A stretch of 59,624 nt of DNA from positions 1-59,624 of the forward strand of contig CAIVDS010000091.1 of the NCBI GenBank assembly GCA_903904685.1, written 5' to 3'. The DNA comes from an uncultured Verrucomicrobiota bacterium (GTDB lineage Bacteria; Verrucomicrobiota; Verrucomicrobiia; Opitutales; Opitutaceae). A program made the position numbers and the translations under genes. Below the pieces are notes generated by a model. That model made no database searches and was not told the DNA's origin. It worked only from the letters and a program-made list of their open reading frames with translations. Position 1 is the first letter of the stretch, and every line of letters starts with the position of its first letter. Positions 4,125-59,624 of the stretch are shown here, piece by piece.

Positions 4125-5357
4125 ATGCCCGCCGTAGCCGCATCTTCTTCGTCCACCAGTCGCCATTCCTTGCCGGATCGTTCTGGCCATTTCGGCCCTT
4201 TCGGTGGCGTCTATGTGCCCGAGACGCTCATGACCGCCCTCAAGGAACTCGGCGACGCCTACGATCAGGCCAAGCAGGATCCGGTCTACCTCACGTTGTT
4301 GCGGCACCACCTCAAGGAATTCGCCGGACGGCCAACGGAGCTTTATTTCGCCGAGCGCCTCACGCAGCATTGCGGTGGAGCGAAAATCTATCTCAAGCGA
4401 GAGGATCTGCTTCACACCGGGGCGCACAAGATCAACAACGCCCTCGGTCAGGTGCTTCTCGCCCTTCGCATGGGCAAGACCCGCATCATTGCCGAGACCG
4501 GCGCGGGCCAGCACGGCGTCGCCACGGCTGCGGTGTGCGCCAAGTTTGGCCTCGCCTGCGTGATTTACATGGGCGCGGTGGACATGGAGCGCCAGGCGTT
4601 GAACGTTTTTCGCATGCGTCTCATGGGCGCCGAAGTGCGCAGCGTCGAAGCCGGCCAGAAAACCCTCAAGGACGCCGTCAACGAAGCCATGCGCGACTGG
4701 GTGACCAACGTCCGCGACACCCATTACATTCTCGGCTCCGCACTGGGCGCGCATCCCTATCCGATGATGGTGCGCGATTTTCACCGGGTCATCGGGCAGG
4801 AGACCCGCGAGCAAATCCTCGCCCGCGAAGGCCGTCTGCCCGACGAGATGATCGCCTGCGTGGGTGGCGGCTCGAACGCCATCGGTTTCTTTTTCGATTT
4901 TCTTGAGGATGCGGCCGTGCGGCTCATTGGCGTGGAGGCGGGTGGTCGCGGTATCGTGCGAGGGGAACACGCCGCTCGTTTCAAAGGAGGCAAGCTTGGC
5001 GTGCTTCAGGGCAGCAAGACCTACATCCTCCAAAACCCCGACGGGCAGATCGAGCTGACGCACTCCGTGAGCGCCGGTCTCGACTACGCCGCCATCGGTC
5101 CCGAACACGCCTACTATCGCGACACCGGTCGCATCGGTTACTCGTATGCATGCGATGACGAGGTGATGGAGGTCTTCCAGCTTTGCTCGCGTCTCGAAGG
5201 CATTTTGCCTGCGCTGGAATCCACCCACGCGCTGGTGGAGGGACTCAAGCGTGCGAAGGCGCTGCCGAAGGATAAAATCGTTCTCATCAACCTCTCTGGC
5301 CGTGGCGACAAAGACGTCAACCAAGTGGCAAAGCTGCTGGGCGTTAAACTTTTTTGA
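4125..5357 (+). CDS. trpB: Tryptophan synthase beta chain
   Basis: This is a 410-residue PLP enzyme that condenses indole with L-serine to make tryptophan. The PLP lysine is Lys102 in [13 protein letters not shown], and the phosphate-binding loop GGGSNAIG is intact. N-terminal [15 protein letters not shown] is the classic TrpB1 opening, so this is the TrpA-dependent type. The trpA gene is not in the window. The 79-base upstream gap shows no leader-peptide attenuator. The yicC-like gene starts 20 bases downstream, so the two may be cotranscribed. Confidence 0.96.
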
Positions 5358-8167: not shown

Positions 8168-9232
8168 TTATTCGTCGCCACCGTCGTCGCCACCGCTGGC
8201 GATGGTGCCGCCTTCTTCCCCGAGTTCGCCGAAAAGTCCTGCCTGGGTGCGTGAACGATGGCGGTTTTTCTCGATGCTTTTCTGCGCCTCGGCGGAGTAG
8301 CGCGTGAAGGGCACGGCCAGCAGACGCTCCTTGGCGATGGGTTTCTGGGTGACTTCGCACAGGCCGTAGGTGCCGGCCTTGATGCGTTGGACGGCGGCTT
8401 CGACTTCGGAGAGGGCTTCCTGTTCGGAGGCGACCATGCTGAGGGCGAAATCGCGGTCAAAGGTGTCAGTGCCGGCATCGGCCATGTGCTGGCCGTAACT
8501 GGAAAGATCGCCGGCGTCGTCCTTGGCGGAGCGTTTCAACGTCTCCTCGGAATGAGTGTCGATCTGGCCGGTCAGGTGATTGCGGAGGTCGATCAAGAGG
8601 CGGTAGAAACGGCGGAATTTCTCGGGGATTTCATCGACGTTCTCGATAACGGAATGTTTGGCCTTCTTGGGATTAAAACCGAGGATGTCGGCAAGCGATG
8701 CGGCTTTGATGTGATGGGGCTGCGCCGCTTTTGCCAGCTTGGCGGTGTTGAGGTGCTTGCCGGACTTGGCGGCGGTCTTGGCCGCAGCCGCCTTGGCCTC
8801 GGTGTCACGCCGCGATGAGGTTTTTGCGATCTCGCTAATTTCATCGAAGGAAAAAGATATCGGGCGGAGTTTCTCCTTTGTTTTGCTCTTCTCGAGAATC
8901 TTGCTGCGCAGATCGGCCCGTGCCGAGGACTTTGCGGTTGCGGCCGCTTTGGGCACGCTGATGGAGGTGACTGCCTTCTTGCCCGTGGCCTTGGCGGGTG
9001 CGATGGCCTTGTGCGATGGCTTCGCCACGGGCGCAGCTTTAGTTTTGGCAGTCGGCTTGAGGGCCGGCTTTGCCTTGGGCTTATGTTTTTGGATGACGGG
9101 TTTGGAATGCTTCACGGGTTTCTTCGGAGATTTTTTCGGAGCAGACTTCGCAGGTTTGCGAGTCGGCTTCGCGGGTTTGCGGGCAGGCTTCTTTTTCTGA
9201 GCCGGGGCGAGCTTCTTGGGTTTTTTGGACAT
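8168..9232 (-). CDS. TraR/DksA-like protein with Lys/Ala/Pro-rich histone-like N-terminal tail
   Basis: This 354-residue protein has two parts. Residues 1 to about 170 are extremely rich in Lys, Ala and Pro, with motifs such as KKPARKPAKPTRKPAKSAPK, resembling histone H1 or chlamydial Hc1 tails. The C-terminal part resembles DksA/TraR, with EVEAAVQRIKAGTYGLCE followed by KPIAKERL. The four-cysteine zinc finger is degenerate. Only Cys292 remains; the partner position reads Thr and the second pair is gone. The C-terminus is acidic. The start is ATG at 9232, 29 bases after ileS. A role at RNA polymerase or on DNA is inference. Confidence 0.8.
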   Translation of the reverse strand: MSKKPKKLAPAQKKKPARKPAKPTRKPAKSAPKKSPKKPVKHSKPVIQKHKPKAKPALKPTAKTKAAPVAKPSHKAIAPAKATGKKAVTSISVPKAAATAKSSARADLRSKILEKSKTKEKLRPISFSFDEISEIAKTSSRRDTEAKAAAAKTAAKSGKHLNTAKLAKAAQPHHIKAASLADILGFNPKKAKHSVIENVDEIPEKFRRFYRLLIDLRNHLTGQIDTHSEETLKRSAKDDAGDLSSYGQHMADAGTDTFDRDFALSMVASEQEALSEVEAAVQRIKAGTYGLCEVTQKPIAKERLLAVPFTRYSAEAQKSIEKNRHRSRTQAGLFGELGEEGGTIASGGDDGGDE

Positions 9233-21752: not shown

Positions 21753-22955
21753 CTAGGCCGTGAGGCTGAACCCGAGATGCTCCGCGAGGCGCTGGCGGCG
21801 GATGCCGTAAAACGCCGCGAACGCCCGGATGCGCCCGGCCAGCGCCGAGCCGGGATCGCGCGTGCCGCCCGGCGACGGCGTGGTTTTGATCGCCGCGAGC
21901 ATGAGGTTCTTCGCGGTGTGCTCCGTGGAGATGAACTCGATGACCTTGGTGCGATAACCCGCCCACTCCAGCAGCATGGCGCGGAGCGCGTCGGTGACGA
22001 ACTCGGCCTGGCGTTCCTGGAAAATACCGTGGCTCAACGCGTCGGCCAGCACGGCGGGCGCGGCGAGTTGCGGGCGCAGCTCCTTCTGGCAGCACGGCGA
22101 GACGACGAGCAGGCGCGCGCCCGCAACGAGACCCTTGGCGAGCGCGTCGTCGGTCGCGGTGTCGCAGGCGTGCAGGGCCACGAGCGCGCCCACGTCGGCG
22201 AGCGGAGTCGAGGCGATGTCGCCGGCGGCGAAGCGCAGGTTGGCGAGGTGGTTGTCGCCCGCGATGCGGTTGCAGAGCGCGACCAACTCGGGGCGGGCCT
22301 CGACGCCGGTCACGCTGGCGCGCGCGCCGAGGTGCGCGGCGAGCGCGAAGGTGAGGTAGCCTTTGCCGCAGCCCATGTCGGCGAGGGTGAAGGGCGCGTC
22401 GGCGTCGGCGGGGAGGAGGCCGGCTTCGACGAGGAGGTGGGCGAGGAGTTCGGTGAACTTCTGGATCTGGCGGAACTTGCCGGCCATGCCCTCGCGGGGC
22501 TGGCCGTGATCGTTGGTCACGCCGAGGGCGCGCAGCCAAGGGGCGTCGGCGGGCACGAGGTGGTCCTTGGCGCGGTCGTGGTGCTCGACGGCGGGCGCGG
22601 GGGCGTTGGCGGCCATCTTGATGGAGAGGCGCGCGGTGCCGTCGGCGCGGTTTTCGAGCTGGGCGGTCTGCGCGGGCGTGAAGAGGTGCGCGTCCAGAAA
22701 GTCGCCGCCGATGTGCGGACCGAGGAGCGCGAGCGCGGCGTCGGGGGCATGGTTCTTGATGATGTCGCGCGTGGCGTGCCGCCAGGTGAACGAGAGGTGC
22801 GGGCCGGCCTTGAGGGTGACGGGGCGCACAAAGATGTTCTCGAGCGTGGCGTCGGCCCCGCGGTGCTTGCCGAGGGTGAGCTTCACGAGCGTGCCGTCGT
22901 GGACGGCGGCGGCGAGCAGGGCGAGGAAACGGTCTCGGGAGTCGGCGGCGGACAT
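21753..22955 (-). CDS. Class I SAM-dependent methyltransferase (METTL25-like)
   Basis: This is a 400-residue cytoplasmic protein. The SAM-binding motif I is TLADMGCGKGYLTFALAAHL, at about residues 195-215. Later motifs include LVALHACDTATDD and VVSPCCQKEL, plus a C-terminal HTAKNLMLAAIK. This combination is seen in SAM methyltransferases related to the METTL25/RRNAD1 group. The substrate is not known from sequence. The start ATG at 22955 gives MSAADSRDRF. An in-frame extension to 23396 would translate the repeat array and is rejected. The region is very GC-rich, in sharp contrast to the adjacent array. Confidence 0.75.
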   Translation of the reverse strand: MSAADSRDRFLALLAAAVHDGTLVKLTLGKHRGADATLENIFVRPVTLKAGPHLSFTWRHATRDIIKNHAPDAALALLGPHIGGDFLDAHLFTPAQTAQLENRADGTARLSIKMAANAPAPAVEHHDRAKDHLVPADAPWLRALGVTNDHGQPREGMAGKFRQIQKFTELLAHLLVEAGLLPADADAPFTLADMGCGKGYLTFALAAHLGARASVTGVEARPELVALCNRIAGDNHLANLRFAAGDIASTPLADVGALVALHACDTATDDALAKGLVAGARLLVVSPCCQKELRPQLAAPAVLADALSHGIFQERQAEFVTDALRAMLLEWAGYRTKVIEFISTEHTAKNLMLAAIKTTPSPGGTRDPGSALAGRIRAFAAFYGIRRQRLAEHLGFSLTA

Positions 22956-23079
22956 GTGTCCGGCGAAGTTGAGCGGGGGATTCCGCAATGTCAGTCTTGT
23001 TCGCGGGCGGGGCGGGGAAAATATCCGGCGGGCTTGGGTAACCGTTCCGCAGCGTGGCGGGGGAGCCCGAAACTCTGGC

Positions 23080-23352
23080 GGGGTGGACAAAACGGCAGGC
23101 GCGGTGAACAAAAAACCAAGTGCGGGCGGAAGAAAAGCGAGTGCGGTGATAAGAAAAATTAGCGCGGTAGTCTTAAAACCGATTGCGGTAATAGAAAAAG
23201 TTAGCGCGGTAGTCCTAAAAGCGATTGTGGTGATAGGAAAAACTAATGCGGTGATAATAAAACCTATCGCGGTGATAGTAAAAAGTATCGCGGTAATAGT
23301 AAAACCGAGTGCGGTCGGCCAAAAAATAAGTGCGGGCGGGCCAATTTGACCC
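23080..23352. repeat. Array of about thirteen degenerate 21-nt tandem repeats
   Basis: Units of exactly 21 bases start at 23080, 23101, 23122 and so on to 23332. GCGGT occupies positions 1-5 in most units, and AAAA at positions 12-15 is invariant in the eleven units from 23101 to 23331. The pair 23143-23184 and the pair 23185-23226 form a 42-nt higher-order duplication. Weaker 21-nt periodicity around AAAACAC continues to about 23410. GC content is near 40 percent in the core, against about 70 percent in the flanks. A GTG at 23083 could open an 88-residue plus-strand frame of heptads like SAVVLKP and IAVIVKS. Opposite-strand frames are also open. Coding status is undecided. Confidence 0.85.
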
Positions 23353-23453
23353 GAAAACACGCCAAAATCGGTCAAAAACACGGGAAAACGACCCAAAACA
23401 CACCCAACCCTCTCAGAAACGCCGCAAACCCACCACGCGTTGAACTGAACGGA

Positions 23454-23503
23454 GGTCGGGGCCGCACCCGACGCAAGGCCGACCTAGCCGGTCGGGCTTT
23501 TTT
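23454..23503 (+). terminator. Plus-strand terminator with a competing upstream hairpin
   Basis: CCGACC at 23479-23484 pairs with GGTCGG at 23490-23495, and a run of six T residues ends at 23503. Upstream, GTCGGG at 23455-23460 can pair with CCCGAC at 23467-23472. GGTCGG at 23454 could also pair with the left arm of the terminator. No annotated plus-strand gene ends just before it, because the protease already has its own terminator at 21751. It therefore points to a transcript arising across the repeat array, or to control of the small gene at 23619. Confidence 0.55.
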
Positions 23504-23618
23504 GTGCCTAGCGGGAAGTCCGCACGGTCGCAAACGGAAGCGGGAGAATGTGGGAAGGGAAAGAGGCGGACGCCTTCATCTTGATCTTTCGAGGGCGATC
23601 AAACAAAGTGGGAGCGCG

Positions 23619-23822
23619 ATGTTTCACGTCCTCTTAATCTTGTGTTTTATCGGATTGGTTTTGGCCGTGTTCACGAGTTCGGGCGATGATGCGACCTATT
23701 ATACCACTCATCCCGACGGACGCATGACCGAGCAACGCGGCAAAAACGGGAAAGTCGTGGAGACCTGCGGCCCGCGCAAGCAAAGCGCCCGCTGGATCAC
23801 GGGTTCAGGCGAGGCGGAGTGA
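23619..23822 (+). CDS. Small single-pass membrane protein of unknown function
   Basis: This 67-residue frame starts at ATG 23619 with GGGAG about five bases upstream. Residues 2-17 form a hydrophobic segment (FHVLLILCFIGLVLAVF), followed by a polar part with repeated Thr, Gly, Lys and Arg. No family is recognised. It lies between the repeat array with its terminator and a convergent minus-strand gene. The good ribosome-binding site and a clean membrane segment are the only support that it is real. Confidence 0.45.
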   Translation: MFHVLLILCFIGLVLAVFTSSGDDATYYTTHPDGRMTEQRGKNGKVVETCGPRKQSARWITGSGEAE

Positions 23823-23879
23823 GCGCGGGGCTCAGGACTTGGGGCCGGTCGTCTTGGCGGCGGGGCTTATGGCCGGCGG

Positions 23880-25202
23880 TCAGTAATATTTGCTGCGGGA
23901 AATCACGACCCGGAGCGTTTCGTCCTCGGGGACGAAGGCGTCGAACGTGTCGATGAGCGTCTGCAGCCGCATCAACATATAGGGTTCCAAGGAGCCGGAG
24001 CTGTTCTTGGTGTAAACAACGTCGTCGGCGATGAAGATGGCCGAGTGGATCACGTCGCCGTTCGGCCTGACGAGTTGCACGAGATCGCCGTAGCGCGGGT
24101 CGGACAGCACGGGGAAATAATCGTTATCGATGATTTTCCGGATTTTTTCGTGGTCGGTCAGGCTGAGGTCGGGCGGGTCCCGGAAAAAATTAAGCGCGAC
24201 CCAATGGCAGTCCTTGAGCGCGTCGGCGGGATCCCGCGACGGGAAGGGGAAGGTATAAAGGCATTCCGTCGGCATCGGGGGGAACAGATGGACGATGTCA
24301 ACCCGAGCCCCGCCGGGGACCCGCGACAGCGATTCCAGCATGGGCGTGATATCCTTGCCCCATGAGGCCTTGGACCAGTAGTTCGCTAAGGAGGTGACGT
24401 TGGAGTCCGCCGTGACATGCAGCCGGAGCAGGAGGGTCGATTTACCCACGATCGTCCGGATGAACCGAACCTTGTCGTCGAAAACGGGGATTTTTCCCAA
24501 AACCCAGGGTGCGTCGCAGAAAAAAAGCAACTGCCCGTGGCGAAACGACAGGGTCTTGACCAGATCGATGATGTCGGCGGAGAGGCCGCTGTGCGCGAAG
24601 ATGTCGTCGAACTGATCGGCGCGAAAAGAGGCCATCCGTCCGCGAAGGCCGCTGGCGGGAAGCTGCCAGAGGGCGGTGTAGATCGTCTTCCGCGCACTTG
24701 GGGAAAGGGTGAAGATCAGGTTGTCGGAAGGCGTGATGGTGATCCCGTCGCCGCCTTGCTGCCATTTCGCGGTGTCTGCCAGTTCCGCCCTTTGTGCGGG
24801 GGTCAAATCCGCCTTGTTGAAGAGGGCGGTGAGCGTCTCGGGGGAATAATCGACGAAATACCACCGGCTCCCGATCTCCTCCAGCATCTTGACGGGAAGA
24901 TATTCCTCCAGGGGGGCGATGCGGATGGGGACGGCTTCAAGATGTCCCCACGGGCCCGGTTTCAGGGGCACGGCCCGGTCGGCGGTGGTAGCCAGAAGCT
25001 CGGGGGTGAGCGGGGGTTTCTTGAGGCTCCATTGCGCCCGGCCGGCGACATAACCGGCGACCAGGCAGCCAAGGGCGGCGGCGAGGACGGCGGCGGCGAC
25101 TGCGGGGCGGAGCGCCCCCGCGCAGGAGGAACCTCCGGCGGAGGGCTGCCCATGCAGGGTTTGGGTGGACTGGGGCTGCGGCTTTTCCTTTATCTTTCGC
25201 AC
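23880..25202 (-). CDS. Membrane-anchored protein with possible papain-like (NlpC/P60-type) C-terminal fold
   Basis: This is a 440-residue protein from the GTG at 25202; a TTG at 25223 is equally possible, and no ATG fits. A Pro/Gln-rich N-terminus precedes a transmembrane helix in RPAVAAAVLAAALGCLVAGY. Much of the middle is unrecognised. Near the C-terminus, DCHWVALNFF is followed about 60 residues later by YGDLVQLVRPNGDVIHSAIF. A Cys, a GDLV strand and a His-containing strand are the layout of NlpC/P60-like and permuted papain folds. This is pattern recognition, not a firm assignment. It is downstream of the pilT genes on the same strand. Confidence 0.5.
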   Translation of the reverse strand: MRKIKEKPQPQSTQTLHGQPSAGGSSCAGALRPAVAAAVLAAALGCLVAGYVAGRAQWSLKKPPLTPELLATTADRAVPLKPGPWGHLEAVPIRIAPLEEYLPVKMLEEIGSRWYFVDYSPETLTALFNKADLTPAQRAELADTAKWQQGGDGITITPSDNLIFTLSPSARKTIYTALWQLPASGLRGRMASFRADQFDDIFAHSGLSADIIDLVKTLSFRHGQLLFFCDAPWVLGKIPVFDDKVRFIRTIVGKSTLLLRLHVTADSNVTSLANYWSKASWGKDITPMLESLSRVPGGARVDIVHLFPPMPTECLYTFPFPSRDPADALKDCHWVALNFFRDPPDLSLTDHEKIRKIIDNDYFPVLSDPRYGDLVQLVRPNGDVIHSAIFIADDVVYTKNSSGSLEPYMLMRLQTLIDTFDAFVPEDETLRVVISRSKYY

Positions 25203-25285
25203 GGTTGAAAGGCGAATCCACAACCGGAATAAAACGGAAGTCGAGCCGATTGAAAACCTGCGACGAGGATGCCGGGGACGAAGGT

Positions 25286-25315
25286 GTCAGGGCAGATATT
25301 CGGTCGTCATGACCT
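25286..25315 (-). repeat. 30-nt direct repeat, left copy; resembles a substrate-binding-protein gene end
   Basis: On the minus strand this reads VMTTEYLP and a stop. The 3' end of the ABC substrate-binding gene at 29555-29584 reads VMTTDYLP and a stop. The two 30-nt stretches differ at one position and have the same orientation, 4.27 kb apart. It is either an att-like duplication or the last trace of a second binding-protein gene. Confidence 0.6.
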
Positions 25316-25370
25316 TGCGCGGCAGGCCGCGTGGTTGGCCCGCTGCAAGTGGCGTTGTCAATCCGGCCTG

Positions 25371-26447
25371 TCAGTGTCCGCCGTCGAGGTCGCCGGGCTT
25401 GAGGAGGGCGGCGAAGGGGGCCTTGTTGGCGGCTTTCATGTAGGCCTCCACCGGCGCGATGCTGCCGTCCTGCACGCGGGCGAGGAGGCTTTGGTCCATC
25501 GTGATCATGCCGTCGGCGCCGCCGCCTTCGATGATCGCGCGGATGTTGCTGATCTGGCCGCTGCGAATGGTGTTGGGCAGCGCCTCGTGCTGGACGAGAA
25601 TCTCGTGGACGGCGCAGCGGCCTTTGGGGATGCGTTTGCAGAGGAGCTGGGAAACGACGCCGGCGAGGCAGCCGGCGAGCATGACGCGCACCTGGTTCTG
25701 CTCGTCGGCGGGAAAGGCGTTGATGATGCGGTCGATGGTCTTCGGGGCGTTGTTGGTGTGGAGCGTGCCGAAGACGAGCATGCCCATGCTCGCGCAGCCG
25801 AGGGCGAGCTTGATGGTCTCGAGCTCGCGCATCTCGCCGAGGAGGAGGATGTCGGGATCGTGGCGCATGGCGCCCTTGAGCGCGTCGGCGAAGGAGCGGG
25901 TGTGATCGCCGACCTCGCGGTGGACGATGGTGCACTGTTTGTTTTGGTGAACGAACTCGATGGGGTCCTCGATGGTGATGATGTGGCGGGCGGAGGTCTC
26001 GTTGATGTAGTCTATCATCGCGGCGAGGGTGGTGGATTTGCCGCTGCCGGTGGGGCCGGTGACGACGACGAGGCCTTCCCGGAGGTTGCAGAGTTTCTTG
26101 AGGACGGGGGGGAGCTTGAGGTCGTCGAAGGAGAGGATTTTGGCGGGGATCTGCCGGAAGACGGCGGCCTGGCCCCAGTGGTTGTAGAGGTAGTTGCCGC
26201 GAAAGCGGGCGACGCCGGGAATCTCGTGGGCGAGGTCGAGGTCCTTGGTGTCGAGGAACTGCGCCCAGCGGGCGGGCGGGCAGATTTCCTGGAGGAAGAC
26301 CTCCATCTTTTCGGCGGTGAACGGGGTGTCGTTCAACGGGGTGAGCGCGCCGGAGACGCGCGTCTTGGGCGGGAGGCCGACGGTGAGGTGCAGGTCGGAG
26401 CCGCCGCGTTCGAGCATGGTTTTGAGAAGGTCGTCGATGGCGGGCAT
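25371..26447 (-). CDS. PilT-type type IV pilus retraction ATPase
   Basis: This is a 358-residue hexameric secretion-superfamily ATPase that in known systems depolymerises type IV pili. Walker A is GPTGSGKSTT, the Asp box is EDPIEFVHQNKQC, Walker B is ILLLGEMRELET, and the His box is FGTLHTNNA. The N-terminal PAS-like domain begins MPAIDDLLKTMLERGGSDLHL, which is typical of PilT. It lies 18 bases downstream of a second, longer paralog. No pilin, PilQ, PilB or PilC gene is in the window, so the partner machine is elsewhere or absent. Confidence 0.88.
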   Translation of the reverse strand: MPAIDDLLKTMLERGGSDLHLTVGLPPKTRVSGALTPLNDTPFTAEKMEVFLQEICPPARWAQFLDTKDLDLAHEIPGVARFRGNYLYNHWGQAAVFRQIPAKILSFDDLKLPPVLKKLCNLREGLVVVTGPTGSGKSTTLAAMIDYINETSARHIITIEDPIEFVHQNKQCTIVHREVGDHTRSFADALKGAMRHDPDILLLGEMRELETIKLALGCASMGMLVFGTLHTNNAPKTIDRIINAFPADEQNQVRVMLAGCLAGVVSQLLCKRIPKGRCAVHEILVQHEALPNTIRSGQISNIRAIIEGGGADGMITMDQSLLARVQDGSIAPVEAYMKAANKAPFAALLKPGDLDGGH

Positions 26448-26465
26448 GGGAGGAAGGGCGGAGAC

Positions 26466-27932
26466 TCAGGTGATCTTGGCGCGGAGCATGCGGTTGACGA
26501 TGTTGAGGCGGGCGGTCTCGGCGGTGATGGCGCGACTCTGGTAGAGATCGAAGACGGAGTTTTCCATGAGGCACATGCCGTCGCGTACGCCGGTTTCGAG
26601 GACGTTGCGCAGGCCCTGGCTTTTGCCCTCGCGGATGAGGTTGGAGACGGCGCCGTTGGCCACGAGAATCTCGCAGGCGAGCACGAGGCCGCCGCCGGTG
26701 CCGGGGAGGAGGCGCTGGCAGATGATGCCGCGCAGGCTCTCGGCGACGCTGGCACGGATCTGAGCCTGCTGCGAGGGGGGAAAGACGTCGAGGATGCGGT
26801 TGAGCGTGGTGGCGGCGTCGCTCGTGTGCATGGTGCCGATCACGAGGTGGCCGGTCTCGCTGGCGGTGATCGCCATCTCGATGGTTTCGAGATCGCGAAG
26901 CTCGCCGATGACGATGACGTCGGGGTCTTCGCGGAGGGCGCCCTTGAGGGCGGTGGCGAAGGACCGGGTATGCGGGCCGACCTGGCGCTGGGTGATGTTG
27001 CAGCCTTTGGCGGGCTGCACGATCTCGATGGGGTCCTCGACGGCGATGATGTGGTCGGTGCGCGTCTCGTTGAGCTCGGCCACGAGGGCGGCGAGGGTGG
27101 TGGTCTTGCCGGAGCCGACGGGACCGGTGACGAGGATGAGGCCGTTGTGGTAGCTGAGGAGCTTGCGGATGACGTCGAGATTGAGCAGGCCGAGGTCGGC
27201 GAGGCGGGGAATGCTGGCGGGCACCATGCGGTAGGAGCCGGCCGCGCCACCCTTGTGAAACATGAGGTTGACGCGGTAGCGGTTGGTCGCGTCGAGCGCC
27301 AGGGCGTAGTCGAAGTCCTTCTGGTCGAGGAAAAGTTTCCGCTGCGGAGGGGTGAGCAGGGCGGTGTTGAGGCGCAGGGCGTCCTCGGACGCGAGCACCT
27401 GTTCGCCGATCGGCACCAGCTTGCGGTCGTGGCGGATAAACGGGCGCGAGCCGGCGGAGAGGTGCAGGTCGCTCGCGCCGTAGCGGGCGCTGTCGCGCAA
27501 GAGCGCGCGCATGGCGGCGGCGAGCGCGGGGTCGTCCAGCGTGCCGATCATGTCGAAGGGAAGCCTGGGGGGCTTAGGCGGACCGCCGCGGCCGGCGGCG
27601 ACCATGAAAGGCGGGGCGGTGTCGCCGGGGGTGGCGCGGCCAGGCGGGGGTGCCGCCCGTGGCGGCGGCGGGGCGGCGGGAGTCTCCGGATCGTTGGCGA
27701 AGGGGTCGTCGACGGGAGGGCCGACCTTGGCCTTGTTGAGGGAGAGGCCGGCGATTTTTTCAAGGGTGGCGAGATGCTCGCCGGCCACATGGCCGTCGTC
27801 GATGAGCCTCTGGGCAAAGTCCATCGGGTCCGCGCCTTCACCCAAGGCGGCGCGGACGTCGAGGGCGTGGGCGTGGGTGAACAAACCCTGGTCGATGCCA
27901 AGACGGACGAGCCAGCGAATCTCGTTTTTCAT
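26466..27932 (-). CDS. PilT/PilU-like ATPase with extra N-terminal domain and Pro-rich linker
   Basis: This is a 488-residue paralog of the neighbouring PilT. Residues 1-70 form a small helical domain (DFAQRLIDDGHVAGEHLATL), and residues of about 75-125 are Pro/Ala-rich. The ATPase part then begins with RYGASDLHLSAGSRPFIRHD. Walker A is GPVGSGKTTT, Walker B is VIVIGELRDLET and the His box is IGTMHTSDA, all intact. The start ATG at 27932 is preferred; the longer frame to 28061 overlaps the divergent lipoprotein-like gene. By analogy with PilU it may help PilT retraction. The extra N-terminal domain is not usual in PilU. Confidence 0.82.
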   Translation of the reverse strand: MKNEIRWLVRLGIDQGLFTHAHALDVRAALGEGADPMDFAQRLIDDGHVAGEHLATLEKIAGLSLNKAKVGPPVDDPFANDPETPAAPPPPRAAPPPGRATPGDTAPPFMVAAGRGGPPKPPRLPFDMIGTLDDPALAAAMRALLRDSARYGASDLHLSAGSRPFIRHDRKLVPIGEQVLASEDALRLNTALLTPPQRKLFLDQKDFDYALALDATNRYRVNLMFHKGGAAGSYRMVPASIPRLADLGLLNLDVIRKLLSYHNGLILVTGPVGSGKTTTLAALVAELNETRTDHIIAVEDPIEIVQPAKGCNITQRQVGPHTRSFATALKGALREDPDVIVIGELRDLETIEMAITASETGHLVIGTMHTSDAATTLNRILDVFPPSQQAQIRASVAESLRGIICQRLLPGTGGGLVLACEILVANGAVSNLIREGKSQGLRNVLETGVRDGMCLMENSVFDLYQSRAITAETARLNIVNRMLRAKIT

Positions 27933-28040
27933 AAGAAGCGGCGGGAGCCGGATTGCCGGACAGTGTGCGGCTGCGGGGAACCGGAGCCAAGCGAGAAGCG
28001 GATGGAACTTCCGGATGTCGTTCCCGGTCAAAAAAAGATT

Positions 28041-28454
28041 ATGAACACTCAATCTCATCAAGGGTGGAAAAGTTTGGCGATGGCATCGGGTTTGGCCGTC
28101 TTGGCGGCTGTCCAGTCGGGTTGTGCCTTGCTGGCGGTTGGCGCCGCGGGTGCGGCGGGCGCCGGCACGGTGGCCTATGTGCGCGGAGAACTCACCGCCG
28201 AGCTGCCCAACGGCTACGAGTCGGTCGTGCGCGCCTCGAATCGGGCGATCGACGGGCTGCAGTTCAAAAAAATCAGCGAGGCGAAAGATGCGCTCAAAGC
28301 CGTCCTGATCGCGCGCAGGGCGGACGACACAAAGGTTGAAATCACGATCACCAAAGAGTCGGATGCGCTCACGAAGGTGGAGATTCGCGTGGGTGTGTTT
28401 GGCGACGAGCGCCTGTCGTTGATGATCCTCGATAAGATCAAGGGCGGTTTGTAA
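28041..28454 (+). CDS. DUF3568-like small exported protein, possible lipoprotein
   Basis: This 137-residue protein starts at ATG 28041. A hydrophobic N-terminal segment ends at Cys28 in VQSGCALLAVGAAGAAGAGT. The lipobox is imperfect because the -3 residue is Gln, so lipidation is possible but not certain. The remainder, with YVRGELTAELPNGYESVV and a late KVEIRVGVFGDERLS, resembles DUF3568 proteins, which are periplasmic and of unknown function. It is divergent from the PilT-like gene, with 108 bases between starts. It lies inside the block bracketed by the 30-nt repeat. Confidence 0.7.
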   Translation: MNTQSHQGWKSLAMASGLAVLAAVQSGCALLAVGAAGAAGAGTVAYVRGELTAELPNGYESVVRASNRAIDGLQFKKISEAKDALKAVLIARRADDTKVEITITKESDALTKVEIRVGVFGDERLSLMILDKIKGGL

Positions 28455-28598
28455 GCGGCATGAGGTTCAAGGCCGCGCCGGGTGGGGTCGTGCCTTCCAG
28501 CCCGACGCGGCTCGCGGCATTTCCGACTTGGTTTCGGAGGCCCGAAAGGTATCCGTTGACCAGCCCATCCCGTTTTTTCGCCCGCACACGATCCCCCC

Positions 28599-29540
28599 AT
28601 GATTTTGAAAACCCCCTTCGCAATCGGCCTTCTGGCATTGAGCTTCCTGACGGCGAACGGACAGGAGACCGCCTCCGCACCGATCACGCGGGGGCAGAGC
28701 ATCTACGCGTGCCACCACAGTTATTTCCTGCCCGTGCCCGCCCTCCTGACGGAGATGGCCAGGGCGGGGGGATTTCCCGACCAGATCATCGTCGGCACCC
28801 ACATGATCGGCGCTTCCAAATCCATCCAGCATTGGAACGCCCACGACGCCGCCAACCGGTCCAAGGAGGTGTTGGGCGAGGGCAAGCTGGACGTGCTCAT
28901 CCTGACGCCGTGCTATCTTCCGGACGACGGCATCGGCAACTACGCGCAACTGGGCTTCGACCATAATCCGGCCATCCGCGTGACCGTGATGGAAGCGTGG
29001 CCGGCGTACGACATCTACAATCCGACGGTCTTCGATCCCAACTACCAGCGCCATCCCGGAGAACCGGCCTTCGGGCCGAAGCTGGATCGGGTGGAGCGCA
29101 ACAAGGCGACGAAGGAGGCGTTGGAGACGATGCAGGCCTACTATTTCCGGACGATGGACGAGCACATCGCTGCTCTGAACAAAAAGCTGGGGAAGCAGGT
29201 GGTGTTCGTCGTGCCGGCGGGCCAGGCGGTGATCGCGCTGCGGGAAAAGATCATCGACGGGCAGGCGCCCGGGTTGAAAACGCAGGAAGACCTTTTCTTG
29301 GACCCGATCGGCCACCCCAAGCCGCCGCTGGCGGTGCTGGAGTCGTATTGCCACTACGCGGTGATCTACCGAAAGAGCCCGGTGGGCCTGCCCGTGCCGG
29401 CGGCTTTGGCCAAGGCTGCGATTTCGGCGGGCGATTTGGAGCCGTTGAACCGGCTGTTGCAGCAAGTGGCGTGGGACGCCGTCATCCGCCATCCGCTGAG
29501 CGGAGTGACGGAGAAGCGAGTCGCATCGGTTGCACGCTAA
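28599..29540 (+). CDS. Secreted protein, SGNH-hydrolase-like, function unknown
   Basis: This is a 313-residue protein with a signal peptide over about residues 1-21 (ILKTPFAIGLLALSFLTANG). The first strand motif ITRGQSIYACHHSYF and the late block DPIGHPKPPLAVLESYCHYA recall SGNH-like exported proteins. In these the first motif contains a Gly-x-Ser and the last block a Asp-x-x-His. Here GQS and DPIGH are candidates. I cannot confirm a catalytic triad. It converges on the substrate-binding-protein gene with only 15 bases between stops. Confidence 0.55.
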   Translation: MILKTPFAIGLLALSFLTANGQETASAPITRGQSIYACHHSYFLPVPALLTEMARAGGFPDQIIVGTHMIGASKSIQHWNAHDAANRSKEVLGEGKLDVLILTPCYLPDDGIGNYAQLGFDHNPAIRVTVMEAWPAYDIYNPTVFDPNYQRHPGEPAFGPKLDRVERNKATKEALETMQAYYFRTMDEHIAALNKKLGKQVVFVVPAGQAVIALREKIIDGQAPGLKTQEDLFLDPIGHPKPPLAVLESYCHYAVIYRKSPVGLPVPAALAKAAISAGDLEPLNRLLQQVAWDAVIRHPLSGVTEKRVASVAR

Positions 29541-29554
29541 GGCGGACCGAGGGC

Positions 29555-33641: not shown

Positions 33642-34513
33642 TGCGGAAGTTGAGAGTTGAGAGCTGAGAGTTGAGAGCCGGAGGCGTTGCGGAGGGCGGC
33701 GGCCATGAGGGCGGCGCGACGGTTGGCGCGAACGTCGTGAACACGGAGGAAATCAACCCCCTGCCAGACCGCAAGCGCGGTCGTGGCCAGCGTGCCTTCG
33801 AGGCGTTCCTCGGGCGGGAGGCCGAGGACGTTGCCGACGACGGATTTTCGAGAGGCGCCGAGCAGGATCGGGCAGCCCAGCGCGTGCAGTCCGCCGAGGC
33901 GGGCGAGGATGCGCAGGTTTTGCCCGTGGGTTTTGGCGAAGCCGATGCCGGGATCGAGGATGATGCGGGCGCGGTCGATGCCGGCGCGGGCGGCGATGTC
34001 GAGGGAGCGGGCGAAGAAGGCGAGCAGCGGCGGCATCACGTCGTCGGCGGCGGGGAGATCGCGAAAGGCCTCGTCGTTGTGCATGAGGATGGCGGCGCAT
34101 CCGCTCTGGGCTATGACGGCGGCCATGTCGGGGTCGCGCTGGAGTCCGTGGATGTCGTTGACGATATGCGCGCCGGCCTCGATGGCGGCGCGGGCCACGG
34201 AAGATTTGTAGGTGTCGATGGAGATCGGCATGTCGACATGACCGGCCAGTTCGCGAATGACGGGGACGACGAGGGCGATTTCATCGGCGGGCGAAAGCTC
34301 GACGTAGCCGGGGCGGGTGGATTGGCCGCCGATGTCGAGGAGCGCAGCGCCTTCGGCGATCAACCGGCGGGCGTGGGAGACAGCGGCGGCTGGGACGTTG
34401 AAGCGGCCGCCGTCGAAGAACGAATCGTCGGTGACGTTGAGAATGCCGGCGATGAGCGGCTCGTGTCCGAGGACGAGGTGACGGTCGCGGCAAGGCAGGT
34501 TGCGGGTGTGCAT
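33638..34513 (-). CDS. folP: Dihydropteroate synthase
   Basis: This is a 291-residue enzyme that joins hydroxymethyl-dihydropterin pyrophosphate with p-aminobenzoate. It is the sulfonamide target. Motifs are GILNVTDDSFFDGGRF, LLDIGGQSTRPGYVEL and DPGIGFAKTHGQNL. The start is ATG at 34513, overlapping the permease stop (ATGA). The C-terminal residues GSQLSALNSQLPQ are encoded by a heptanucleotide tandem repeat rather than by conserved family sequence, so the exact end can vary without touching the barrel. Confidence 0.95.
   Translation of the reverse strand: MHTRNLPCRDRHLVLGHEPLIAGILNVTDDSFFDGGRFNVPAAAVSHARRLIAEGAALLDIGGQSTRPGYVELSPADEIALVVPVIRELAGHVDMPISIDTYKSSVARAAIEAGAHIVNDIHGLQRDPDMAAVIAQSGCAAILMHNDEAFRDLPAADDVMPPLLAFFARSLDIAARAGIDRARIILDPGIGFAKTHGQNLRILARLGGLHALGCPILLGASRKSVVGNVLGLPPEERLEGTLATTALAVWQGVDFLRVHDVRANRRAALMAAALRNASGSQLSALNSQLPQ
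33649..33676. repeat. Heptanucleotide tandem repeat in the folP 3' end
   Basis: Four 7-base units on the plus strand read GTTGAGA, GTTGAGA, GCTGAGA and GTTGAGA. They encode the folP tail on the minus strand and end eight bases before the folB start codon. Because seven is not a multiple of three, a change of one unit shifts the folP frame. Confidence 0.75.
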
Positions 34514-59253: not shown

Positions 59254-59517
59254 GGTACCAGCGTGCGCGATGCGGCGGTTGCGTCAAAGTCAGAAACACG
59301 CGATCCCGCGATCATGCTTTCACCGGAAAACAAAGCGCGAGGGTGTCGCGCCGTGATCGCGGTGCGCCAAAGTTCACGCCACCAGCCATGCGCTGCTCTC
59401 CGCAGTGATTGTGCGGTTGAGCGAACGCTCAACGGTGACATCGTTTAAGACTATGATACGGTCTGCCGGATCATTGCCGACGGCTTCGTCGGTAGAGCGC
59501 CAGGGGATCAAGAGATC
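59254..59517. other. Non-coding stretch upstream of rmuC
   Basis: It carries no credible gene. It contains a TetR-like palindrome at 59417-59432 and a stem CCGACG/CGTCGG around a GCTT loop at 59477-59492. It should hold the rmuC promoter. A TATGAT at 59452-59457 could be a plus-strand -10 element, without a convincing -35. Confidence 0.4.
59417..59432. promoter_or_regulatory. TetR-type operator-like palindrome
   Basis: TTGAGCGAACGCTCAA is a perfect 7-base inverted repeat around AA. The size, spacing and outer TTGA/TCAA are typical of TetR-family operators. No TetR gene is in the window; the candidate is to the right of the window edge. It lies 164 bases upstream of the rmuC start. Confidence 0.45.
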
Positions 59518-59624
59518 ACCGTAGCAGAAAAGGGAAATACCGTAAGCGGGCAGGGAAACACCGCAGTAAGGATGGGAAACACCGCAGTAAAGCTGGGGAA
59601 TACCGAAGTAAGGCTAAGAAACAC
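59518..59624. repeat. Second 21-nt tandem array, running off the right edge
   Basis: Five units of exactly 21 bases start at 59518, 59539, 59560, 59581 and 59602, each opening with ACCG and ending GGAAAC, GGAAAT or AGAAAC. The array continues past the window. The frame beginning at 59518 reads heptads TVAEKGN, TVSGQGN, TAVRMGN, TAVKLGN and TEVRLRN, with synonymous changes at the Asn and Gly codons. It is open back to 59449 but has no standard start codon. Confidence 0.85.

Follow-up and report, generated by a model that had tools for sequence, protein, structure and literature searches.

A dispersed module of 21-bp-period repeat arrays lies 5' of two gene families and restriction operons in an Opitutaceae genome

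The 21-bp-period array examined in this report is one copy of a dispersed DNA module and not a local satellite. The window (the whole stretch of DNA analyzed, 59,624 nt) is contig C91 of a 3.23-Mb draft genome in 114 contigs from an uncultured member of the Opitutaceae, and arrays of this kind were seen at 27 loci of that genome, the window's two included; at a 28th candidate locus, C43_60k, the array position falls beyond the contig end. Arrays lie 5' of 9/9 testable copies of a gene family that we call X, of 8/8 copies of a second family, Y, and of 3/3 C5-methylase restriction operons, with one locus, C100, counted both as a Y locus and as a restriction locus. From locus to locus the arrays keep a spacing of 21 bp, i.e., two helical turns, while their letters turn over freely. 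We tentatively read them as a control module, set in helical phase, upstream of genes of a mobile or conflict type, a reading to which we give close to an even chance and in which the binding of a protein, the control of transcription, and the curvature of the DNA would each have a part. No description of these arrays was found in the open-access literature that was searched.

Results

The features of the window that are discussed here are as follows.

23080 to 23352, plus strand: 21-bp-period array, type 1; clean units at 23101 to 23331; GC content, 0.44.
23336 to 23435, plus strand: leader behind the array; eight A/T-tracts spaced in phase at 10.2 bp; predicted to be curved.
23429 to 23534, plus strand: remnant of the X 3' end (last codons and stop) and terminator-like site; 78% identity to the C24 copy.
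22957 to 29551, no strand: 6.6-kb insertion relative to 8/8 related genomes compared; array and X remnant near its left end.
59458 to 59624, plus strand: second window array, type 3 (as 5' of Y at C96), truncated where the contig ends.

The first array has 11 clean 21-nt units and two degenerate edge units, at 23080 and 23332. A sequence-only reading had counted thirteen units; the array is real, but only the 11 are good and the edge units are worn. The AAAA reported at unit positions 12 to 15 between 23101 and 23331 is present in 11/11 units. Tandem Repeats Finder gave periods of 21, 42, and 84, and identity at lags 21/42/63 is 0.63/0.65/0.57, for a combined lag identity of 0.62, compared to 0.28 in dinucleotide shuffles (z = 19.6; 0/1,000 shuffles as high). 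The core is low in GC, as first described, at 0.43 to 0.44; the GC-rich neighborhood put at 70% is found just upstream (0.68 to 0.73), but the flank just downstream is at ~0.58. The units run head to tail with no spacers, where a CRISPR would have identical repeats and unique spacers, and the array was rightly held not to be one. An A-tract in nearly every unit is the hallmark of this array type, with 0.5 to 1.0 A4/T4 tracts per unit in the seven type 1 arrays tested, compared to 0 to 0.66 in the other 20 arrays. The proposal of bent DNA has its basis in these tracts, but the stronger bend signal lies just behind the array, in the leader at 23336 to 23435 with its 10.2-bp spacing.

Two other repeats were noted in the window: a 21-bp repeat at 9133 to 9191, apparently within a lysine/alanine-rich coding sequence on the minus strand and probably an ordinary coding repeat, and a 7-bp AGTTGAG repeat at 33648 to 33677, similar in make to the simple repeat CTTGAACTTGAACT near X copies.

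One plus frame of the window array can be read as heptapeptides with no stop, and one minus frame is also stop-free, both as first noted. That the arrays are decayed heptad-repeat coding sequence, with a period of seven codons and an origin as old N-terminal repeats of X, nevertheless appears very improbable. Some stop-free frame exists in 12/22 arrays, and at C26 and C113 the 21-bp phase appears, by eye, to continue into a proline-rich X N terminus; however, 10/22 arrays have stops in every frame, the C24 array has two stops in the frame that the window array leaves open, a codon-position bias at p < 0.05 was found in only 1/18 arrays, and arrays also precede Y and restriction genes. The suggestion of a heptad-repeat protein gene is thus not supported, given the stops and codon-position variation that carries no coding signal.

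Searching the whole genome with the window array, as had been proposed, gave 11 matches on eight contigs, which make up seven loci with the window included if C49 and C108, with their overlapping units, are taken as one array split at contig ends. The order of unit variants is common to several of the copies, which indicates that whole arrays have been copied. Stretches picked blind away from known loci yielded three strong arrays over 260 kb, with a best lag of 21 or 42, and a further 271 kb yielded none; identity was 0.71 to 0.81 for the three strong arrays, compared to no more than 0.62 at other lags in these own-genome samples. Samples of three relatives held no lag-21 array in 200 kb (G010), three weak ones (0.53 to 0.61) beside strong repeats of other periods (G002), and one weak one (0.57; G016). 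It had been foreseen that absence from the same place in relatives and from the rest of the genome, along with a lack of transcription, would mark a local, neutral satellite: the array was indeed not found at the same site in relatives, but with many further loci in the genome that description does not follow, and the array and A-tracts first described are a true part of a larger system.

The window copy has lost gene X, of which only the 3' end and a terminator-like site, with a stem at 23479 to 23495, are left. Array and remnant lie near the left end of the 6.6-kb insertion, the rest of which holds two PilT-type ATPase genes, a pair that sits elsewhere in 5/5 relatives examined, and two open reading frames (ORFs) with no match among 12 further genomes of the genus. 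The methyltransferase gene to the left (21756 to 22955) was matched in 13/13 genomes of the genus, the match in G005 being a fragment, and there was no comparable array in the flanks of the 11 methyltransferase loci checked in relatives. In 8/8 relatives compared, this gene abuts the homologue of the sequence at 29551 with a gap of 0 to ~800 bp, compared to an additional 6.6 kb in the own genome, where the draft assembly breaks at arrays and a wrong join at the insertion may exist. Behind the second window array, at the contig end, a Y gene would be expected; the 160 bp before this array match the flank of the Y locus C56_142k at 80%. The stretch at 59365 to 59624 resembles a copy of the C56_142k locus that includes the tail of the neighboring gene.

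The low GC content and the terminator-like site behind the array could frame a transcript, and a repetitive small RNA had been among the first suggestions. There were, however, zero Rfam matches in the six sources scanned, and the unit sequence is conserved neither between array types nor at an orthologous site, so that no base-pairing sequence is kept. We consider it highly unlikely that the array encodes a repetitive noncoding RNA.

Gene family X was defined from the 238-aa ORF behind the C24 array; the genome carries 10 complete or almost complete copies of it, in addition to short remnants. All nine copies with upstream DNA have the array, and the tenth (C43) ends a few bases from a contig end. 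Among the remnants, C49 and C12 have an array and C4 and C42 have no strong one; locus C42 (L094) was dropped as an array, with a lag-21 identity of 0.56 over a short stretch. No Pfam match above the cutoff was found for X, nor any NCBIfam match above the cutoff for the one X protein searched; no solved structure matched convincingly (the PDB gave two matches to HslU, E = 0.017 and 0.042, which were not taken as real), matches to PHROG were weak (best E = 0.03), and X was absent from the viral contigs searched. One X member matched the defense model PDC-S02 (best E = 0.0005) and ten other proteins run did not; this member must be L063, which is outside those ten. Counting the own genome, X was found in 6/56 genomes when relatives were searched, and in 3/387 genomes of a phylum sample in which no more than seven candidates per genome were scored. 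dN/dS is 0.62 to 0.93 in five within-genome paralogue pairs with >55% identity and 0.43 in one pair with G010; these values are high for intact genes and compatible with weak constraint. In G010, G011, and G003, an X gene or fragment has an upstream 21-periodic array, each with a different unit sequence, and fragments in G008 and G033 have no array upstream. The window copy, C49, and C12 show the pattern of an internal deletion, with the array side and the 3' end of X retained and the middle missing. The C24 and C56 loci share a 111-bp flank that holds the end of a gene that we take to be uvrA, whose last codons precede the C24 array.

Several further observations concern X copies. The uvrA codons upstream of the array at C24 look as if copied from the C56 locus (L040, ~4308 to 4418; L039, ~4532 to 4642). 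The 21-bp phase of the array seems to continue into the X N terminus as proline-rich heptads at L046 (3400 to 3560) and L066 (3150 to 3420). The simple repeat CTTGAACTTGAACT recurs upstream of X (L061, L064, and L065), and a gene for a WYL-domain regulator (L060, 1852 to 3012) adjoins the copy at C94.

Y is a 106-aa winged-helix protein found behind the arrays at C114 and C99. Pfam HTH_24 matched the C99 copy above the cutoff (E = 4.5e-6) and the C114 copy below it (E = 0.00047), and two Y proteins had no NCBIfam match above the cutoff. An array lies upstream of all eight genome copies, one of which is cut by a contig end; the copies at C100 and C96, which have a common 99-bp flank at 99%, may stem from one recent duplication or represent two alleles. 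Divergence in Y is highest over 12 residues in the region of the recognition helix (0.54, compared to 0.28 in the core), with a p of 0.011 that refers to the best of any window, the place having been chosen after the peak was seen. Among 93 other genomes, Y was found at a cutoff of E = 1e-6 in G006 only, where no X was found; G010 has the reverse combination, X with an array and no Y found. The G006 gene adjoins a purN-like gene (as read from its sequence), as does the own copy C56_142k. At this orthologous site the leader is kept (73%) and the array consensus is at chance level (9/21). The G006 array itself is periodic, with 0.41 at period 21 compared to 0.32 at the next best (z = 7.1), and a coding control upstream of it gave z = 4.4 with no distinct peak.

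The genome has three C5-methylase genes, and an array lies 5' of the operon in each case.

C100: array, Y, methylase, HNH nuclease.
C21: array, X-like leader, Eco29kI-type nuclease, methylase.
C44: array, HTH_3 controller, methylase, MvaI/BcnI nuclease, Vsr.

Two of these three loci were known array neighbors before the methylase search, through which alone the C44 array was found. There are also MmeI-type genes beside C43_9k and C12, and Mrr-type nucleases adjoin C49 and lie at a distance of one gene from C56. Pfam searches covered 28 array-neighbor proteins, ten of them chosen partly for a restriction-like look, so that only the methylase count is even-handed. At C12 and C21, restriction genes follow an array and X leader.

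Three gene classes behind one kind of array raise the possibility of a recombination or landing platform, comparable to attI, at whose arrays and leaders X, Y, and restriction genes are inserted, swapped, and deleted, with regulation secondary. We regard this as rather improbable. The large deletions of X in several copies and the restriction genes placed after an array and X leader at C12 and C21 would fit it, as would the position of the window array near one edge of an insertion absent from 8/8 relatives compared; the DNA behind the C24 array, moreover, matches a G010 stretch, and that before it has no match at E = 1e-20. Yet the other edge of the window insertion has no array, the upstream DNA that loci have in common varies in extent (111, 47, or 43 bp), no integrase or attC-like site was noticed short of a model-based search, and some of the joins may be errors of an assembly that breaks at arrays. 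With respect to MITE or REP features, the units have no dyad symmetry (mean of 4.94 of 8, compared to 4.82 by chance), and the shared upstream flanks measure 43, 47, and 111 bp.

Between a Y array and the start codon is a leader of ~100 bp, which is 62 to 93% identical in all pairs of seven own copies and G006, while the arrays in front are at chance-level similarity between types. A-tracts phased at ~10.3 bp were found in 8/8 Y leaders tested (seven of the eight own copies and G006) and in 4/4 type 1 X-side leaders tested, all with p at the floor of 400 shuffles except the Y leader at C21 (0.005). The leader of the C44 restriction locus also passes (p = 0.02), for 13 phased leaders at p < 0.05 among the 22 tested; significant phasing was seen in 0/9 of the other X leaders (seven own, two from relatives). 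The first part of the window leader is common to the X-side loci C24, C49, and C56. In type 2 the leader of the Y locus is phased but that of the X locus is not, which argues that the leader tracks the gene family rather than the type of array. In 531 kb of the own genome, a fixed phasing cut that 11/12 Y and type 1 leaders reach was passed at a single site, inside array C70; in the 59.6-kb window it was passed only at 23281 to 23455, and in 380 kb from two relatives it was passed nowhere. With a background near nil, leader phasing is not a general property of the genome. From the phase of the A-tracts, we infer that these leaders are curved.

The best lag was 21, 42, or 63 in 22/22 arrays tested. 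These 22 arrays (19 from the own genome) have 352 units with 2,263 mismatches to their own consensus and five phase shifts, two of which cancel; the counts are not of independent events, as units are copied within arrays, and the shifts include a poorly phased array (C9) and leave uncounted one further shift visible by eye. Six sets of simulated neutral arrays with a 2% indel share had a mean of 20.7 detected shifts and a minimum of 17. From this constancy we infer selection on spacing. Consensus units of 30 arrays (26 own, four from relatives) fall into 17 groups at 16/21 matches, a level that may be compared to a null of 2,000 shuffled pairs that never exceeded 14/21; the G010 unit matches C94 at 14/21, the maximum of the null. 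Type 1 includes the X-side loci C24, C49, C56, and the window, with X reduced or gone at the latter three, the gene-less C43_9k, and the Y loci C114, C99, and C31. The units of C24 (X) and C114 (Y) match at 15/21 directly and are linked by steps of 16 to 19/21. Type 2 brings together the X locus C114_63k and the Y locus C39 (18/21). Within types, matching units run the same way with respect to the gene that follows; the sole match on the opposite strand, C19_2k with C21, fits, the C21 operon being on the other strand.

A 7-bp subrepeat was rejected: AT harmonics reached p < 0.05 at 7 bp in 4/27 arrays, and sequence autocorrelation showed none. Apparent secondary periods of 14, 28, and 35 share lags 42, 84, and 105 with period 21. 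Promoter-like matches inside arrays exceed those in shuffles but fall in the repeats themselves, and they were left out of the argument. In the array at L090 (4080 to 4360; G003), several units contain the palindrome ACTTAAGT or a near form of it, unlike most other types.

The arrays might instead be hitchhiking neutral minisatellites, by-products of slippage or unequal crossing-over at mobile cassettes, with a period that reflects common descent and homogenization and not function. Local homogenization is plain from units that are alike within an array and decayed at its edges; segmental duplication spreads copies, as in the 111-bp flank of C24 and C56 and the 160-bp flank, at 80%, of the window-end array and C56_142k; X may be weakly constrained; and no such array was seen at the corresponding site in relatives. 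Phase shifts are, however, about four times fewer than in the 2% indel simulations (5 compared to 20.7), arrays of unrelated sequence with period 21 occur in five genomes, the 5' position recurs before three unrelated gene classes, and the phased A-tract leader of Y is conserved although it lies outside the repeat. We judge the minisatellite explanation unlikely, if a serious one.

Discussion

In the control-module reading that we favor, the array would be the upstream half of a dispersed cis-module 5' of X, Y, and restriction operons, and the phased leader behind all the Y arrays tested, the type 1 X-side arrays tested, and one restriction operon would be the other part. A protein may dock at every second helical turn, always on one face of the DNA, and fill the array cooperatively, and the curved leader, where present, may help to set the transcription of the gene behind. 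An indel would turn bound neighbors out of line, and hence letters may change but spacing may not: the spacing would be kept while the letters drift to new types. The Y proteins are candidate array binders because their reading helix diversifies and because array types are common to Y and X; X, Y, and restriction genes that follow arrays of one type could then form a single regulatory group. Against the simple version of Y as binder stand units with no dyad, which speak against a dimeric winged-helix protein that reads each unit, and G010, which has X and an array but no detected Y. A nucleoid protein with a preference for curved, AT-rich DNA would serve equally well. A wider formulation is that the arrays are a class of cis-elements set by helical spacing and not by sequence, joined in some cases to a phased A-tract leader and swapped among unrelated selfish or defense genes (X, Y, and restriction operons), in type groups that each have their own diversified Y regulator; this is possible, but we think it distinctly less probable.

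Several known systems offer comparisons. The Omega-repressor operators of plasmid pSM19035 consist of 7-bp heptads bound by a ribbon-helix-helix protein. Like the arrays, they are series of short direct repeats upstream of genes, in that case read cooperatively by a small DNA-binding protein; unlike them, the arrays have 21-bp units of many unrelated sequences. Plasmid iterons are direct repeats of about two helical turns beside the gene for a DNA-binding protein. The arrays differ in that they are chromosomal-looking, multicopy, and not conserved in sequence, and no replication initiator was found. An iteron origin was rejected since the unit sequence is unrelated between types and at the orthologous Y site and since the recurrent linked families are only X (with no Pfam match above the cutoff) and Y (HTH_24), with no replication initiator identified among them.

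The operators of restriction-modification C proteins are a few boxes, unlike the arrays of 11 to 23 units described here, where the same array type also precedes the orphan family X. C-protein operons have a small helix-turn-helix gene and an upstream operator whose specificity sorts incompatibility groups (PMC3874152). The sharing of array types by X and Y resembles such incompatibility groups of controller proteins (PMC3874152). A layout like that of C-protein operons, with a helix-turn-helix gene, an operator position, and restriction genes, is present at C44 and C100, but most arrays precede X or Y alone, and the C44 operon has its own HTH_3 controller besides the array.

At Helicobacter pylori sabA, a promoter-proximal T-tract sets output via local DNA structure and axial alignment (PMC4081817). 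That single T-tract changes in length, whereas the arrays hold to one length and change in their letters. A-tracts at about the helical repeat mark intrinsic curvature, which has been described as a genome-wide signal with a link to nucleoid proteins (PMC3940949). Unlike that genome-wide signal, the phased tracts in this genome are in discrete leaders of ~100 bp at array loci. In Methylacidiphilum fumariolicum SolV, also of the Verrucomicrobia, the genome report gives 54 short tandem repeats with a GC content of 27.9%, far below that of its other repeats (PMC4210602). These and the arrays are both low-GC tandem repeats in Verrucomicrobia, a likeness that may or may not reflect kinship.

The arrays thus belong near the repeat operators and curved leaders known from upstream regions, and there is a fair chance that they are something more distant. 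If the control-module reading is true, evolution would here have kept the pitch of a repeat in nature and given up its sequence, and searches for conserved motifs would miss such elements. The module would link two gene families of obscure function to restriction operons in one genus, and it would make regulation by helical phase cleanly testable, since its natural types let letters vary at a fixed spacing.
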